Below, piece after piece: positions 11,389 through 19,423 of a stretch of DNA of 64,000 nt. Under the pieces are notes generated by a model. The model was not told the origin of the DNA. It saw only the letters and a list, made by a program, of their open reading frames with translations, and searched no databases. This DNA comes from Gemmatimonadota bacterium (GTDB taxonomy: Bacteria; Gemmatimonadota; Gemmatimonadetes; Gemmatimonadales; Gemmatimonadaceae), in the NCBI GenBank assembly GCA_028287235.1, contig JAQBQB010000030.1, forward strand, positions 124,001 to 188,000, read 5' to 3'. Each line of letters starts with the position of its first letter. Positions within the stretch are counted from its first letter, which is position 1. The position numbers were made by a program, and so were the translations under genes.

Positions 11389-11416
11389 TCAAGTTCGCGC
11401 GGCAGGGTGCCGATAC
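11389..11416 (+). promoter_or_regulatory. Probable sigma-28 promoter of flgL-fliW
   Basis: TCAAGTTC (11389-11396) and GCCGATAC (11409-11416) are separated by 12 bases, close to the flagellar sigma-28 consensus TAAAGTTT-N11-GCCGATAA. It lies about 130 bp upstream of the flgL ATG. Confidence 0.6.
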
Positions 11417-11547
11417 TCGGAGAAGACGCGTGGGTCCGCCGGCGCGCAACCCCCGGCGGGGACGAGGCAAGCGGGAAGCGAGACGAGGGGAAACCCTTCG
11501 ATCCTTCCCTCATCCCCGTCCCTCCTCCCACTTCCCGCGAGGTAGGC

Positions 11548-12453
11548 ATGCGAATTACCAGTAATATGATGACCTCCCAGCAGCTCGCTGGGTTGCAGAC
11601 GAACATGGCACTGTTGCAGAAGGCGCAACAGCAGGTCACGTCGGGGAAGCGCCTCAGCGCGCCGTCGGACGATCCCATGGCGACCATGTCGATCATGCAG
11701 TCGGGAAGCTCGCTTCGTGCGCTTGAACAATATCGCACCAGCGTGCAGAGCGCATCGAGCCGCCTCGGGATCGAAGATTCGGCGCTGCAGCAGCTCAGCG
11801 ACCTGATGTCGCGGGCCAAAGTGCTCGGTGTGCAGGCCTCCGGCGACACCGCGACCGCGTCGACTCGCACGCTCGCGAACACCGAGGTCCAGCAGATCTT
11901 CCAGGACATCGTCGCGATCGGCAACACCAAGTACGGCAAGGAGTATCTGTTCGGCGGCCAACAGAGCGCGACCGAACCGTTTGCCGCTACAGGAAGCGGA
12001 GCGACGCTCGACTACACGAGCACGAACCCGTCGGGACAGCGTGCGGTCGGCATTGGCGACGGGCAGACGCTCGCGCCGAACCACGACGGCACACAGATCC
12101 TGGTCAACACGGGCGTCCTCGACGCCGTCAAGTCACTCTCGGCCGCGCTCGATCCCACGTCGTCGACCTATGGGCAGGCGGGCATCTCCGCGGCGCTCAC
12201 GAAGATCGATGCCGCCTCCAACGCGGTGCAGTCGGTGGTTGGCGACACGGGTGCAACGGCGAACTCGCTCACCGTGGCGGGCCAGAACATCGACGCGCTC
12301 AAGCTCAACCTCACGACGTTCAAGTCGAATCTCGAAGAAGTCGACGTCGAGACGGCGATGACCGAGTTGACCACCCGTCAGGTGGCGTACCAGGCGGCAA
12401 TGCTCGCGACCTCCAAGGTCATGGGTCTTACACTCACTGATTATCTGCGATGA
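11548..12453 (+). CDS. flgL: Flagellar hook-associated protein 3 FlgL
   Basis: FlgL is the second hook-filament junction protein. The 301-residue product starts MRITSNMMTSQQLAGLQTNM, and has the flagellin-like N-terminal helix block with TSGKRLSAPSDDPMA and the C-terminal DVETAMTELTTRQVAYQAAM. ATG 11548 is preceded by GAGGT at about the right distance, so the longer upstream frame was not used. Its stop overlaps the fliW start by 4 bp. FlgK is not in this window. Confidence 0.93.
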   Translation: MRITSNMMTSQQLAGLQTNMALLQKAQQQVTSGKRLSAPSDDPMATMSIMQSGSSLRALEQYRTSVQSASSRLGIEDSALQQLSDLMSRAKVLGVQASGDTATASTRTLANTEVQQIFQDIVAIGNTKYGKEYLFGGQQSATEPFAATGSGATLDYTSTNPSGQRAVGIGDGQTLAPNHDGTQILVNTGVLDAVKSLSAALDPTSSTYGQAGISAALTKIDAASNAVQSVVGDTGATANSLTVAGQNIDALKLNLTTFKSNLEEVDVETAMTELTTRQVAYQAAMLATSKVMGLTLTDYLR

Positions 12454-12926
12454 GCCAGTTGACGCTCGTGGGCGCTGAGCCCGAAGAGCTGATCGTTCGG
12501 TCGGACCTGTTGGGAGATCTCACGCTTCGCCCCAGCGACACGTTCACCTTTCCGCAGGGCATCCTCGGCTTTCCGGAATGCCGCAAGTTCGGGATCGTGC
12601 GCGGGGGAAACGATCGTTTGTACTGGATGCAGTCGCTGGAATACTCGGCGCTGGTCTTCCTGCTCGTCGATCCGTTCGCGGTGTTCGACAACTACGCCGT
12701 CGACGTGCCGCCGTCGCACCTCATGCAGCTCGGCGCGCTGAACCCGGCCGACATCGCGCTACTCGCCTTCGTCACGCTGCCCGGGCAGACCGGCGAGCCG
12801 CCGACGGTGAATCTGCAAGGGCCGCTGGCGATCAACTTTCGCACGCGGCGCGCCAAGCAGATCGTGTTCGCGGAGGCGGAGTACGGGGTGCGTGTGCCGG
12901 TGGATCTGAACAACGTGATCGCCTAG
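12450..12926 (+). CDS. fliW: Flagellar assembly factor FliW
   Basis: FliW binds flagellin and antagonises CsrA, coupling flagellin synthesis to export. The 158-residue product has the family pattern: FTFPQGILGFPECRKFGI, YWMQSLEYSALVFLLVDPFA, and LLAFVTLPGQTGEPPTVNLQ then GPLAINFRTRRAKQIVF. Length is normal. It is co-transcribed with flgL and sits immediately before flagellin. A csrA gene, often adjacent to fliW, is not present here. Confidence 0.95.
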   Translation: MSQLTLVGAEPEELIVRSDLLGDLTLRPSDTFTFPQGILGFPECRKFGIVRGGNDRLYWMQSLEYSALVFLLVDPFAVFDNYAVDVPPSHLMQLGALNPADIALLAFVTLPGQTGEPPTVNLQGPLAINFRTRRAKQIVFAEAEYGVRVPVDLNNVIA

Positions 12927-12935
12927 AGAATTCTC

Positions 12936-12961
12936 AAAACCTTCGCTCTCGCGAAGGTTTT
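12936..12961 (+). terminator. Terminator-type hairpin after fliW
   Basis: An 11-bp perfect stem (AAAACCTTCGC / GCGAAGGTTTT) has a TCTC loop. It starts 10 bp after the fliW stop, with the four T of the right arm acting as the 3' U run. It separates flgL-fliW transcription from the flagellin promoter. Confidence 0.75.
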
Positions 12962-12974
12962 GCGCAGACGGCGC

Positions 12975-13001
12975 TAAAGTCGGACGAGCAACCGACGATA
13001 A
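12975..13001 (+). promoter_or_regulatory. Sigma-28 promoter of flagellin gene
   Basis: TAAAGTCG (12975-12982), an 11-base spacer and GACGATAA (12994-13001) match the sigma-28 consensus TAAAGTTT-N11-GCCGATAA in both boxes and in spacing. The expected start of transcription near 13008 gives a leader of about 70 nt before the flagellin ATG. Confidence 0.85.
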
Positions 13002-13036
13002 TGAACACCAGCGACGACGACATAGCCATCGCTACC

Positions 13037-13074
13037 GGAGCACGGACGCTCCAAAGAACAGTTCATGGAGGAAC
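13037..13074 (+). promoter_or_regulatory. Two tandem CsrA-type hairpins in flagellin leader
   Basis: Hairpin 1 (13037-13052) is GGAGC-[ACGGAC]-GCTCC. Hairpin 2 (13061-13074) is GTTC-[ATGGAG]-GAAC. Both present the CsrA hexaloop consensus ANGGAN. The GGA of hairpin 2 is part of the Shine-Dalgarno GGAGG (13067-13071), nine bases before the ATG. CsrA bound here would block translation, as at Bacillus hag, and FliW encoded just upstream would relieve it. The base pattern is seen; the regulation is inferred. Confidence 0.72.
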
Positions 13075-13080
13075 ACCACG

Positions 13081-14904
13081 ATGCGTATCAACACGAACGT
13101 CAGCGCGCTCACCGCGCTCAGCAACCTGAACAAGGTTCAGGATGCGATCGGCAGCTCGATGCAGAAGCTCTCCTCGGGCTTCCGTATCAACAAGGCGGGC
13201 GACGATGCAGCCGGACTCGGCATCTCGAACCAGATGGGCGCCGACATCAAGGCGATGACGCAGGCCTCGCGTAACGCGGAGCAGGCGGGTTCTGTGCTTC
13301 AGATCATGGACGGCGCAACGTCGAACGTCCAGTCGATCCTCGAGCGCATGAAGGAACTGGCTGCGCAGTCGGCTTCGGACACCGTCGATTCTGGCGCCCG
13401 CGGCAAGATCGACAGCGAGTTCGGCACGCTGACGTCGGAACTCGATCGTATCGTCTCCACCACGAAGTTCCAGGGTGCCTCGCTTCTGAACGGCACGTTC
13501 GGCAGCAAGGTCACGAACCTGGGCACGGTGAACGCGGCCGCGGTCGGTAGCCTCACTGGCGCGACCCACGTGGGCAGCGTCACGGTGTCGACGGCTTCGA
13601 CCCTTTCCGGCATCGCCGGCAACGTGACCGCTTCGGTCGTCAACAACGGCACGAACACCCTGGGCACGATCTCGGGTGCGACGGCGACGTTGGCCGTCCT
13701 GAACCCGACCTACGTCAACGGCCTGACGGCTGGTGGCAACCTGACCGTGACCAGCACCTCGAAGCAGACGGACCTGGCTGGTGTCAGCGGCGGAACGAAC
13801 ATCATCAGCGCCACCGTGACGGCCATTGCGGTTGGAGCGGGTGGTAGCGACGCGGCGAATGCCGCGACCCTCGCCCCGGGCACCTATCACGTTGGTCACG
13901 TCGGCGCGGCGCAGTCCGGCTCGACAGACCTCGTGGCCCTGTTCGACTCGAACAACGTGAAGGTTGCCGGTAGCGACACCACCTTCAACTCGAACGACGT
14001 TGCCATCACCTTCGCCGGTACCGGCGTCAAGCTGACGGTTGCCGGTACGACGACCGCCGCCGCTTTCGACACCGCGACGACGACCGCGAACGCGTTCACC
14101 GTGAAGCAGGAGTACAACCTGAACGTGTCCGGCGGCACGCCGCTGCAGGGTGCGCAGGCGCAGCAGACCGTGATCGACGACGGCACGGCGCAGACCGTGA
14201 CGTTCTCGAACTACGGTATCAACCTCGACATCGCGTCGGGCCCGGGTAACTACAACAACCTGAACAACAAGACCATCTCGGTCACCGCCGACAAGGCTGT
14301 GCAGCTCGACGGCACGACCACGGCTGGCGCGCCGGTTACCGCGAAGGTCAAGCTGAACGCGAACCCGGCCGCTCAGAACCTCGACTTCAACGCCACCTTC
14401 GGTGTGCACATCGTGCTCGGCGCTGGCGCGACGGCCTCGAACCTCGGCACCGAGTTCACGGCCGGCACGAACAAGATCGTCCAGAACAGCGGCACCTCGG
14501 CGCAGTTCCTCGTCAGCTCCTCGCAGAGCTACACGGGCAACGACTTGATCAGCCTTGCCGCGATCGATCTCACCTCGACCACGCTCGGCGTCAGCCGCGG
14601 CGCGATCGATCTGACCACGGCGGCCAGCGCGCAGACCGCGCTGACCACGATCGACAACGCAATCACCTCGGTTGGAACGGCGATCGGCTCGATCGGTGCC
14701 GCTGAAAACCGCGTGATGTACGCGAACACGAACGTCAAGACGGCGATCCAGAACTTCACGGCGGCGCAGTCGGCCATCAAGGACGTCGACATGGCGCAGG
14801 AAATGACGACCTTCTCGAAGAACCAGATTCTGTCCCAGGCCAGCACCGCGATGTTGGCGCAGGCGAACCAGCTTGGCCAGAGTGTCCTCAAGCTGCTCCA
14901 GTAG
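13081..14904 (+). CDS. fliC: Flagellin
   Basis: The filament subunit, 607 residues. The conserved N-terminal D0/D1 (MRINTNVSALTALSNLNKVQ, SSGFRINKAGDDAAGLGIS) and C-terminal D1/D0 (AAENRVMYANTNVKTAIQNF then QEMTTFSKNQILSQASTAML) are intact. The middle ~330 residues (about 140-490) are a Thr/Ala/Val/Gly/Asn-rich surface region. Transcription is predicted from the sigma-28 promoter at 12975 and translation control by CsrA/FliW through the leader hairpins. A strong ribosome-binding site GGAGG precedes the start. Confidence 0.97.
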   Translation: MRINTNVSALTALSNLNKVQDAIGSSMQKLSSGFRINKAGDDAAGLGISNQMGADIKAMTQASRNAEQAGSVLQIMDGATSNVQSILERMKELAAQSASDTVDSGARGKIDSEFGTLTSELDRIVSTTKFQGASLLNGTFGSKVTNLGTVNAAAVGSLTGATHVGSVTVSTASTLSGIAGNVTASVVNNGTNTLGTISGATATLAVLNPTYVNGLTAGGNLTVTSTSKQTDLAGVSGGTNIISATVTAIAVGAGGSDAANAATLAPGTYHVGHVGAAQSGSTDLVALFDSNNVKVAGSDTTFNSNDVAITFAGTGVKLTVAGTTTAAAFDTATTTANAFTVKQEYNLNVSGGTPLQGAQAQQTVIDDGTAQTVTFSNYGINLDIASGPGNYNNLNNKTISVTADKAVQLDGTTTAGAPVTAKVKLNANPAAQNLDFNATFGVHIVLGAGATASNLGTEFTAGTNKIVQNSGTSAQFLVSSSQSYTGNDLISLAAIDLTSTTLGVSRGAIDLTTAASAQTALTTIDNAITSVGTAIGSIGAAENRVMYANTNVKTAIQNFTAAQSAIKDVDMAQEMTTFSKNQILSQASTAMLAQANQLGQSVLKLLQ

Positions 14905-14923
14905 TTCGAGCCCGCTTGAAGAA

Positions 14924-14966
14924 CTCCCGAAGGCGGAAGGGCACTTTGCCCTTCCGCCTTCGGGAG
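14924..14966 (+). terminator. Strong hairpin after flagellin
   Basis: A perfect 20-bp inverted repeat (14924-14943 with 14947-14966) with a 3-base loop begins 19 bp after the flagellin stop. No T run follows, so it may act as a terminator, an mRNA 3' stabiliser, or both. Confidence 0.75.
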
Positions 14967-14986
14967 CTTCGGCTATCTGCCGATAC
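14960..14986 (+). promoter_or_regulatory. Possible sigma-28 -10 element upstream of fliD
   Basis: GCCGATAC at 14979-14986 equals the -10 box upstream of flgL, and the same CCGATACT string occurs before flgL and flgM. The -35 position (TCGGGAGC) is poor and overlaps the right arm of the flagellin hairpin, so this is weak. Confidence 0.3.
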
Positions 14987-15023
14987 TCTCCGACAGATAC
15001 AGTCGAACATTGAGGAATAAGGA

Positions 15024-17753
15024 ATGACGACTCCGCTCACGAGCATCCAGGGTTTGGGCAGCGGCATCAAATGGCAGGACTTGGTCGATCAGCTCATCGC
15101 TGTCGACACCTCCCAGCAGCTCACGCCCATCACCAACTCGTCGGCGTCCAAGACGGCGACGATGAACGGGTGGACGCAGTACGGTACCGCGGCCGCCACG
15201 TTGCTGACGTCCGTGAGCGGACTCACGAACGGCTCGGCCTTCGGTGCCGTGGGGATCTCGGCGCCGAACAGCGCGACCACCGGCCGCACGCTGCTCACGG
15301 CGAGCGCGGCGGCGACGGCGACTCCCGGCACCTACAACGTGCAGGTGCTCAGCACCGCCGCGGCGCAGCAGCTCAGCGGCAACGTCGTGTCCGACGCCAC
15401 CGCGGCACTCGGTGTGAGCGGGCAGTTCATCGTCGGCGGCAAGGTGGTCACCGTCGCCAACACCGACTCGGTCAACGCCATCCGCGACAAGGTCAACGCG
15501 CTGAATACCGGCGCGTCGGCCACGCACGTGTCGGCGTCCGTGCTCCAGTTGGGCGGCTCGTCGACGCGCCTCGTATTGTCGAGCGATCTGGGCGGCGCCG
15601 CCGGCGTCGACCTGCGCGACGCGCGCGCCACCGGTGCCGCGCCGAGCCTGATCACACAGCTCGGGTTCATCGATGGAAAGACGACGAATCTGGGAGCCGA
15701 CGGCGCCGCGCGCAGCGCGTTCTTCTCGAGCTCCTCGCAGAACGTCTCGCTGTTGGCGACCGGAGTCTCGTCCTATCCCGCGTCGAGCACGATCAACGTC
15801 AACGGTCACGCGGTCACCGTCGACGTGCAGAATCAGAGTCTCGCGGCGATCGCGGCGAGCATCAATGCGGCGCAGCCGAACACGGCGTCGGTCGAGACCG
15901 TGACCAACGGCGGCACGACGACGTATCGGCTCGCCATCGCCGGCACCGTGACCGCAACGGCGGCCGCGGGCTCGCAGCCGGTGCTCGACCTGCTTGGTCT
16001 GTCGCGCGGAACCACGGGCGTGGTGCAGCAACAGCTCTCGACGTCGAACGTGCTCCTGGATTCGAGCGGCGTCACGGCGACGGGCTCGACGACGTTGCTC
16101 GGGCTCAAGATCTCCGGCGGGATCGGTGCGCAGGTCGGCGACACGTTCACCTTCGCCGGCACCAAGGCGGACGGCACGACTCCCGTATCGCTCACCGAGA
16201 CGGTCGACGGCACGAAGACGATCGACCAGATGCTGAGCGACATCAGCACGGCCTTCAGCGCCACGGGCCGTCACGTGACCGCGTCCGTCGCCGGCGGAAA
16301 GATCTTGCTGACTGACGACGTGGGCGGCGATTCCGGACTTTCCTTTTCCGCGACCGCGAGCAACCAGAGCGGAGTCGCCGATCCTGTTACCGGCGCGAAC
16401 GTGAGCTTCGGCAGCGCGGCGACGACCGCGGTGGGACGCAAGCGTGAGCTGACGGCTGGCACCGACGCGCGCGTGCTCGTCAACGGCATCGGGTTGAACC
16501 GATCGAGCAACAGCATCAGCGACGCCATCCCGGGCGTGACGCTCAATCTGCAGCAGGCAGAGGCCGGAACGACTATCGCCGTGACCGTGTCGCGCGACTC
16601 GAGCAAAGCGGCGGCGGCGATTCAGTCCTTCGCGTCGGCGTACAACGCGCTGCAAACGTTCGTCACGTCGGCGATCGCGTCGGGCGGCGCGCTGCAGTTC
16701 AACGCCGCCGTGCGCTCGTCGTTCAACAGCATCAAGAACACGCTGCTCGTCAGCATCCCCGGTTTGCCGTCCGGCAGCACGTACAGCAGTGCCGCACTGG
16801 TCGGCGTGGCGCTCGACAAGACGGGGAAGCTCGTCGTCGATTCGACCGCGCTCAATGCCGCGCTCGCGGCCAACCCGGGTGCGGTCAAGGCGCTCTTCCA
16901 GACCAATGGCGTGGCCGCGGCCGCGAACTTCAGCTATCTCACGTCCACGGACAAATCGGCGGCCGGCGCGTATGACGTGAACATCACGCGCGCGGCAACG
17001 AACCCCGCGGTGACCGGCACGGCGACCAACTTCGCGTACGTCGCCGGCGCAACGCCGGACACGTTCACGATCAGCGATTCCAGCTCGGGGAAGTCGGGTT
17101 CCATTTCGCTCGCGACCGGCGACACGCCCGACTCCGTTGCCGCCAAGTTGAACACGTTGTTCCAGGCGCAGGGACTGCGGCTCGCCGCGTCGAACGTGGC
17201 CGGAAAGCTCACGCTGAAGGGACTCGACTACGGTAGCAGCCCGTCGTTCACGATCGGATACACGACCGCGAACGGCATCAACGTCGCGGGCCAGCTCGGC
17301 ATCGCGGCGGGCATCGTGCGCAACGGACTCGACGTGCAGGGCAGCTATGCGAGCGGCGGTACGACCTACGCGGCGACGGGTGCCGGCCAGACGCTCACGG
17401 GCGCAGTGGGCACGGCGGTCGAGGGGCTGGCGGTCTCGTACAGCGGCAGCGCGGACGTCGCCACGAGCCACCTCGATTACGCCGTGGGCGTCGCCGGACA
17501 GGCGGGGCGGATCGCCAATTCGATCAGCGCCACGGACGGCACCGTTTCCCTTCAGACGGCGGCCCTGCAGAAGAGCATCGCCGACCTGGCGACCCGCGCG
17601 ACCTCCGTGCAGGGACGCCTCGATCGGACCAAAACGGCGCTGCTAAAGCAGTTCACCGACATGGAAACGGCGCTCTCCAAGATCACCGCGCAGGGCACCT
17701 GGTTGACACAACAGATCAATGCGATGAACGGTGTTAAGAGCTCGGGCAACTGA
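15024..17753 (+). CDS. fliD: Flagellar filament cap protein FliD
   Basis: FliD caps the growing filament and folds flagellin. The N-terminus SIQGLGSGIKWQDLVDQLIA and the C-terminal helix block (LATRATSVQGRLDRTKTALL then KQFTDMETALSKITAQGTWL) are diagnostic. At 909 residues it is much larger than usual FliD (450-650). The extra length lies in repeated Ala/Thr/Ser-rich beta modules, including flagellin-hook-IN-like segments such as TINVNGHAVTVDVQNQSLAA and ADGTTPVSLTETVDGTKTID. The next gene, fliS, follows after 16 bp. Confidence 0.93.
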   Translation: MTTPLTSIQGLGSGIKWQDLVDQLIAVDTSQQLTPITNSSASKTATMNGWTQYGTAAATLLTSVSGLTNGSAFGAVGISAPNSATTGRTLLTASAAATATPGTYNVQVLSTAAAQQLSGNVVSDATAALGVSGQFIVGGKVVTVANTDSVNAIRDKVNALNTGASATHVSASVLQLGGSSTRLVLSSDLGGAAGVDLRDARATGAAPSLITQLGFIDGKTTNLGADGAARSAFFSSSSQNVSLLATGVSSYPASSTINVNGHAVTVDVQNQSLAAIAASINAAQPNTASVETVTNGGTTTYRLAIAGTVTATAAAGSQPVLDLLGLSRGTTGVVQQQLSTSNVLLDSSGVTATGSTTLLGLKISGGIGAQVGDTFTFAGTKADGTTPVSLTETVDGTKTIDQMLSDISTAFSATGRHVTASVAGGKILLTDDVGGDSGLSFSATASNQSGVADPVTGANVSFGSAATTAVGRKRELTAGTDARVLVNGIGLNRSSNSISDAIPGVTLNLQQAEAGTTIAVTVSRDSSKAAAAIQSFASAYNALQTFVTSAIASGGALQFNAAVRSSFNSIKNTLLVSIPGLPSGSTYSSAALVGVALDKTGKLVVDSTALNAALAANPGAVKALFQTNGVAAAANFSYLTSTDKSAAGAYDVNITRAATNPAVTGTATNFAYVAGATPDTFTISDSSSGKSGSISLATGDTPDSVAAKLNTLFQAQGLRLAASNVAGKLTLKGLDYGSSPSFTIGYTTANGINVAGQLGIAAGIVRNGLDVQGSYASGGTTYAATGAGQTLTGAVGTAVEGLAVSYSGSADVATSHLDYAVGVAGQAGRIANSISATDGTVSLQTAALQKSIADLATRATSVQGRLDRTKTALLKQFTDMETALSKITAQGTWLTQQINAMNGVKSSGN

Positions 17754-17769
17754 GCCGATAGTAAATGGC

Positions 17770-18171
17770 ATGAGCTACTCAAACTATGCCTCCCAGGCGA
17801 ACAAGTACCGCGAGCGGGAAATCGTCGCCGCTTCGCCTGCGAAGCTCGTCGTGATCGTCTACGATCACGTGCTGTCCAGTCTCATGCGTGCCCGCGCGGC
17901 GGGCGACGCGAAGAACATCGAGCTGCGCCTCGATTCGCTCGGTCGCGCGCGCGCGGGCATCATGGAATTGCTCGCCACTCTCGACGTCGACAAGGGCGGC
18001 GCCCTCGGCGTGAACCTGCGCTCGATCTATGGCTTCGTGTTCACGCAGCTCATGGATGAGTCGCGGAACCCCGAGGCCAAGCGCCTCGAGCGCTTGATCG
18101 CCATCGTCACCGACCTGCGCGACGCGTTCGCGACGATCGGCGCCGACAGCGCGCAGGTTTCGGCGGCCTGA
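17770..18171 (+). CDS. fliS: Flagellin export chaperone FliS
   Basis: FliS binds the C-terminus of flagellin and prevents premature polymerisation. The 133-residue product starts SYSNYASQANKYREREIVAA and has the classic PAKLVVIVYDHVLSSLMRAR and LDVDKGGALGVNLRSIYGFV segments. ATG 17770 is chosen because the family N-terminus begins there; the frame extends upstream into fliD. Its stop overlaps the next start (TGATG). Confidence 0.94.
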   Translation: MSYSNYASQANKYREREIVAASPAKLVVIVYDHVLSSLMRARAAGDAKNIELRLDSLGRARAGIMELLATLDVDKGGALGVNLRSIYGFVFTQLMDESRNPEAKRLERLIAIVTDLRDAFATIGADSAQVSAA

Positions 18172-19092: not shown

Positions 19093-19111
19093 TCAGGTGC
19101 GGAGGGAACAC

Positions 19112-19423
19112 ATGCAAATCTATCCGAAGAACACTGGGCCGCTGCGCCCGGACATCACCCGCACCTCTCAGCCCGCCGACGTCTCGGACCGTGGTTCGGT
19201 CCAGCCGATCGGGTCGGCGCCATCCGCATCGGACCGTTCGGACAAGGTTCAGATCTCGGATGCTGGACGTGCGCTTGCCGCTCGCGGCGAACGCGCTGGG
19301 TCGGCAGGGCTGGATCCCGCACGGGCTGACGCCATTCGTGGCCGCATCCTGAGCGGAGCATACGATACGCTGCAGGTTGTCGACGCGGTGGCGCGCCGGC
19401 TCCTCGACACTGGGGATCTCTGA
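19112..19423 (+). CDS. flgM: Anti-sigma-28 factor FlgM
   Basis: FlgM holds sigma-28 inactive until it is exported through the finished hook. The 103-residue product has the disordered N-terminal half and the family C-terminus: SDKVQISDAGRALA, then LDPARADAIRGRILSGAYDT, LQVVDAVARRLLDTGDL. ATG 19112 follows GGAGGGA; an in-frame GTG at 19097 has no such site. The conserved operon position after filament genes supports the call. Confidence 0.9.
   Translation: MQIYPKNTGPLRPDITRTSQPADVSDRGSVQPIGSAPSASDRSDKVQISDAGRALAARGERAGSAGLDPARADAIRGRILSGAYDTLQVVDAVARRLLDTGDL

Follow-up and report, generated by a model that had tools for sequence, protein, structure and literature searches.

The CsrA-FliW-flagellin switch has been studied experimentally in Bacillus, Clostridioides and Campylobacter. 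The hag leader of Bacillus subtilis has two sites, BS1 (A51-A55) and BS2 (C75-G82), that are approximately 25 nt apart (PMC8523840). A CsrA dimer can bridge sites separated by 10-63 nt, with an optimum of more than 18 nt (PMC7652899). In Clostridioides difficile, the effect of CsrA on FliC is relieved by FliW (PMC8523840). In Campylobacter jejuni, CsrA acts on the flaA mRNA and FliW antagonises it through V51 and N55 (PMC4894983, PMC7829508); both residues are needed for full FliW binding, and the V51A and N55A substitutions weaken binding (PMC7829508).

Here we describe a flagellin leader from Gemmatimonadota that is very likely a CsrA-responsive translational switch, with CsrA, FliW and flagellin acting as a partner switch as at Bacillus hag. 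This would extend the switch to another phylum. What is new is the Gemmatimonadota-wide occurrence of the predicted sites; the switch itself was already known from Bacillus. In the titles and abstracts of the open-access literature, we found no report of a CsrA-FliW flagellin switch from Gemmatimonadota.

The flagellin locus and its leader

The window, that is, the whole stretch of 64,000 nt that was analysed, contains the + strand gene order flgL, fliW, flagellin, a fliD-like gene and fliS, followed by a weak match to FlgM. The features are as follows.

11407..12453, + strand: flgL, overlapping the start of fliW (TIGR02550, 200.9 bits against a cut-off of 127.2)
12450..12926, + strand: fliW, 158 amino acids (PF02623, E 3.9e-31), with no second FliW gene detected in this genome
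12937..12963 (approximate), + strand: inverted repeat AAAACCTTCGC...GCGAAGGTTTT, 3' of fliW, read from the sequence
12975..13000, + strand: sigma-28-type promoter TAAAGTCGGACGAGCAACCGACGATA, a pattern match that starts 106 nt upstream of the ATG
13037..13052, + strand: hairpin 1, with arms GGAGC (13037-41) and GCTCC (13048-52) and loop ACGGAC (13042-47)
13061..13074, + strand: hairpin 2, with arms GTTC (13061-64) and GAAC (13071-74) and loop ATGGAG (13065-70)
13067..13071, + strand: Shine-Dalgarno GGAGG, read from the sequence
13081..14904, + strand: flagellin gene, 607 amino acids (PF00669, 131.6 bits; NCBIfam flagellin models also match)
15024..17753, + strand: fliD-like gene
17731..18171, + strand: fliS
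19097..19423: weak FlgM match (24.1 bits, below the NCBIfam cut-off of 40.75)

Among solved structures, the top match of the FliW protein is itself a FliW (5dmb_A, E 8.6e-17). FlgL aside, a single copy of flagellin was found in the genome. Its best named relative, with 63% identity, is from a Gemmatimonadetes metagenome-assembled genome (L072), and hairpin 1 is also present in the leader of that gene; this relationship suggests that the window belongs to Gemmatimonadota. The genome encodes FliA (225 bits, above the family cut-off), and the sigma-28-like pattern, TAAAG-N-CGACGATA at -106 from the flagellin ATG, is found in 83 of 104 related leaders compared to 24 of 588 background windows. The inverted repeat is probably a terminator that splits fliW from the flagellin unit.

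An earlier note on this DNA had described two tandem hairpins, 8 nt apart, between the sigma-28 start and the ATG, with both loops matching the ANGGAN hexaloop consensus and the second loop covering the Shine-Dalgarno. The coordinates and letters proved exact, as did both loops, and GGAGG lies in loop 2 and reaches one base into the 3' arm. The distance from GGA to GGA is 23 nt. Hairpin 1 is probably a high-affinity CsrA site and hairpin 2 is probably a second one. The predicted folding energy of hairpin 1 alone is -7.3 kcal/mol and that of hairpin 2 only -1.5 kcal/mol. When the 88-nt leader is folded whole, its stability is unremarkable (z -0.90), and thus the case for the hairpins rests on comparison and not on folding energy. 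An Rfam scan of positions 12000-15000 gave nothing near the leader; three sub-threshold matches elsewhere were judged to be chance. Upstream of hairpin 1 (13010-13033) there is a further apparent hairpin with a different loop (GCGAC...CGC here) that apparently occurs in many leaders. The alignment of the relatives' leaders yields no consensus structure for that element.

Hairpins of this kind are rare in random sequence. Counting Watson-Crick hexaloop hairpins with a stem of at least 4 bp in Markov-generated leaders of 74 nt with matched dinucleotide composition, we found one such hairpin in 0.12-0.15% of leaders and two in 0 of 200,000. Windows from the same loci had a background rate of 15/11,600 (0.13%) for hairpins of the hairpin 1 type. 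The whole window contains, on both strands, four such hairpins compared to 2.15 expected, and two of the four are those in the flagellin leader. The other two (58084 on the + strand and 60353 on the - strand) are consistent with chance expectation.

Conservation of the two sites across Gemmatimonadota

Hairpin 1 is supported by compensatory changes. In a first set of 118 genomes (this genome and its relatives), 37 have a flagellin of this type, and hairpin 1 is present in all 37 of the leaders, with its GGA 33-39 nt upstream of the start codon. The 5' arms vary (GGAGC, GAGGC, AGGGA, GGGGA, GGGGC and GGGAC), yet the stems still pair. Double changes occur at 6/6 pairs, and the covariation score is 0.588, compared to 0.246 for shuffles and at most 0.176 for slid structures. 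Hairpin 1 is the sole structure that RNAalifold predicts from the leader alignment of this set.

The same pattern recurs in a second set, 395 genomes of the phylum, which contributed 71 held-out leaders absent from the first. Hairpin 1, with a stem of at least 4 bp, is present in 66 of the 71. For the 89 distinct hairpins, the score is 0.619 (0.240 for shuffles, at most 0.180 for slid structures), and there are 131 double-changed cells compared to 36.8 in shuffles, with compensatory changes at all six pairs. Mapped onto a tree built from the flagellins of 36 species, the type of the five-pair stem switches at least 12 times with pairing kept, which means that the compensatory changes did not all descend from a single event. 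The invariance of A-N-GGA among the scored hairpins is partly built in, because that form was required in picking sites; a departure from it could show in the 5 held-out failures. The earlier note would have given way had the stems not been conserved while the GGA drifted; we found the reverse, stems that covary around a GGA that stays. The leader hairpin thereby gains phylum-wide covariation evidence.

Five leaders from another family (f5; genomes G145, G221, G307, G238 and G219) carry one more A-N-GGA hairpin, 17-22 nt before hairpin 1, so that two or three hexaloop hairpins stand in a row.

The constant part of site 2 is the A-N-GGAG over the Shine-Dalgarno, and its stem is lineage-dependent. 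A-N-GGAG is the downstream site in 95 of the 103 leaders that have site 1, and a stem of at least 3 bp surrounds it in 55 of the 103. In the first set, 61% of the cells of hairpin 2 are paired, and its covariation is above that of shuffles, but far less uniform than that of hairpin 1. Of the 100 leaders with both sites, 88 have a GGA-to-GGA spacing of 20-26 nt, which falls within the range that a CsrA dimer can bridge.

Similar arrangements are found in flagellin leaders of other phyla. An A-N-GGA hairpin of at least 4 bp, 28-60 nt before the start, is present in 39 of 78 such leaders, and in 21 of the 39 another hairpin is found close to the Shine-Dalgarno. Among these records are Bacillota, Krumholzibacteriota, Myxococcota, Chloroflexi and actinobacterial sequences. 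These leaders are consistent with an old and widespread arrangement, and with an old role for CsrA in flagellum assembly.

CsrA and FliW in the phylum

The earlier note had found no csrA beside fliW and had placed the partner elsewhere in the genome, and that is where it is. A genome lacking csrA would have counted against the reading in that note, and the gene is present. There is one copy of csrA, encoding 80 amino acids, 9 nt 3' of flgK on the same strand and 30.6 kb before fliW, beyond the window. The protein matches TIGR00202 above the cut-off, and its nearest solved relatives are CsrA proteins. It keeps Arg44, which binds RNA, and the FliW-contact residues Val51 and Asn55. Among 30 aligned CsrAs, Arg44 is found in 30, valine or isoleucine at position 51 in 30, and Asn55 in 27. 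The kept V51 and N55 support control of CsrA by FliW. In the other three CsrAs (genomes G037, G065 and G027), position 55 is threonine, and FliW is present there.

Flagellin, CsrA and FliW have nearly the same distribution. In the first set, FliW is found in the same 37 genomes as flagellin; CsrA occurs in all of these and also in G111. In the second set, flagellin was found in 102 genomes, CsrA in 102 and FliW in 97, with nearly identical genome lists. The exceptions, many of which are incomplete assemblies, are G111, G123 and G150, which have CsrA but not this flagellin, and G154, G231 and G270, which have flagellin but not CsrA. G270 has a flagellin match with no leader hairpin (its start codon is unsure), and neither CsrA nor FliW was found there; it is a possible natural negative control. 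Three genomes of one genus (g40; G086, G090 and G314) have a FliW profile match that is split in two, with approximately positions 50-75 left out, as if this inner stretch had been deleted or had diverged. Four genomes of family f11 (G118, G119, G120 and G122) each have about four flagellins, a weaker match that resembles FlgL and two copies of csrA; several of their flagellin leaders bear both hairpins.

The flagellin leader is the best match in its own genome to the covariance model of the leader (29.3 bits). The other matches in this genome have 19-24 bits, and the best of these (L153), with 23.7 bits, is apparently within a coding region. This search used the covariance model only and scored 150 of 2,323 candidates. 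It would pass over single sites that lack a hairpin, so the CsrA regulon may be wider. It is conceivable, though we lean somewhat against it, that CsrA in Gemmatimonadota is a dedicated flagellin regulator with about one mRNA target per genome that is lost with the flagellum, and that some lineages have multiplied the sites (one more hairpin upstream) or the proteins (two CsrAs with about four flagellins). Because flagellin, CsrA and FliW occur together almost without exception, the phylum is suited to studying a CsrA with, perhaps, a single main target.

A predicted switch and its known counterparts

From the sequence, we infer CsrA binding, bridging and repression, antagonism by FliW, and binding of FliW to flagellin. 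RNA polymerase directed by FliA would produce a leader of approximately 75 nt. One RNA-binding pocket of a CsrA dimer would occupy the stable hairpin 1 and the other the weak A-N-GGAG 23 nt downstream, and CsrA on the Shine-Dalgarno would keep ribosomes from starting flagellin. Unsecreted flagellin would hold FliW, the product of the adjoining gene. Once the hook is done and flagellin is exported, free FliW could bind CsrA near Val51 and Asn55 and remove it, and flagellin translation would then keep pace with export. Two observations speak against this account: the stem of hairpin 2 is weak here and absent from about half of the leaders, and Asn55 is replaced by Thr in 3 of 30 CsrAs.

CsrA might bind this leader and yet mainly govern the stability or localisation of the mRNA, not the access of ribosomes. 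The stability of some messages is known to be controlled by CsrA (PMC5694010), and the Campylobacter flagellin mRNA is localised via the CsrA-FliW network (PMC4894983). However, site 2 lies on the Shine-Dalgarno and its position relative to site 1 is kept across the phylum, which fits ribosome blocking, and we consider a main role in stability or localisation unlikely.

It is more improbable still that the hairpins act without CsrA, by plain occlusion of the Shine-Dalgarno or by stabilising the RNA. The Shine-Dalgarno does sit in a stem-loop, and 5' hairpins are able to stabilise mRNA. However, stem 2 is weak and often absent, and the genomes that have flagellin are nearly the same as those that have CsrA. 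We reject a masking or stabilising hairpin that is independent of CsrA because hairpin 1 lies well away from the Shine-Dalgarno, and because its A-N-GGA-N loop, which a mere stabiliser would not need to hold constant, persists amid changing stem pairs. Lastly, the stems are short and the folding energy of the whole leader is ordinary, as might be expected of chance hairpins with no function, but the low rates in random and background sequence, the recurrence in held-out leaders and the covariation leave that reading a negligible probability, conservation having already refuted it.

We therefore return to a CsrA-responsive translational switch and to the systems that it most resembles. FliW and CsrA are both encoded here, as in B. 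subtilis. In B. subtilis, fliW and csrA are adjacent, whereas csrA here follows flgK, at a distance from fliW; the phylum is also a different one, and CsrA binding here is predicted. The likeness to the two-site layout of Bacillus hag that the earlier note had drawn agrees in the number of sites (CsrA sites at hag, predicted ones here), in their spacing (about 25 nt there and 23 nt here) and in the overlap of the second with the Shine-Dalgarno (PMC8523840, PMC7652899). The fliC gene of C. difficile is similar in having a leader, of 91 nt, with two predicted CsrA sites (PMC8523840), but it belongs to another phylum and has been studied genetically, whereas the present analysis is one of sequence. 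As in the CsrA of C. jejuni, V51 and N55 are both present in the CsrA of this genome. Finally, the predicted arrangement is like that of Escherichia coli glgC, in which a CsrA dimer bridges a high-affinity upstream hairpin to a site on the Shine-Dalgarno (PMC7652899); unlike the gene described here, glgC is not a flagellin gene, and its control is by sRNAs and not by FliW.
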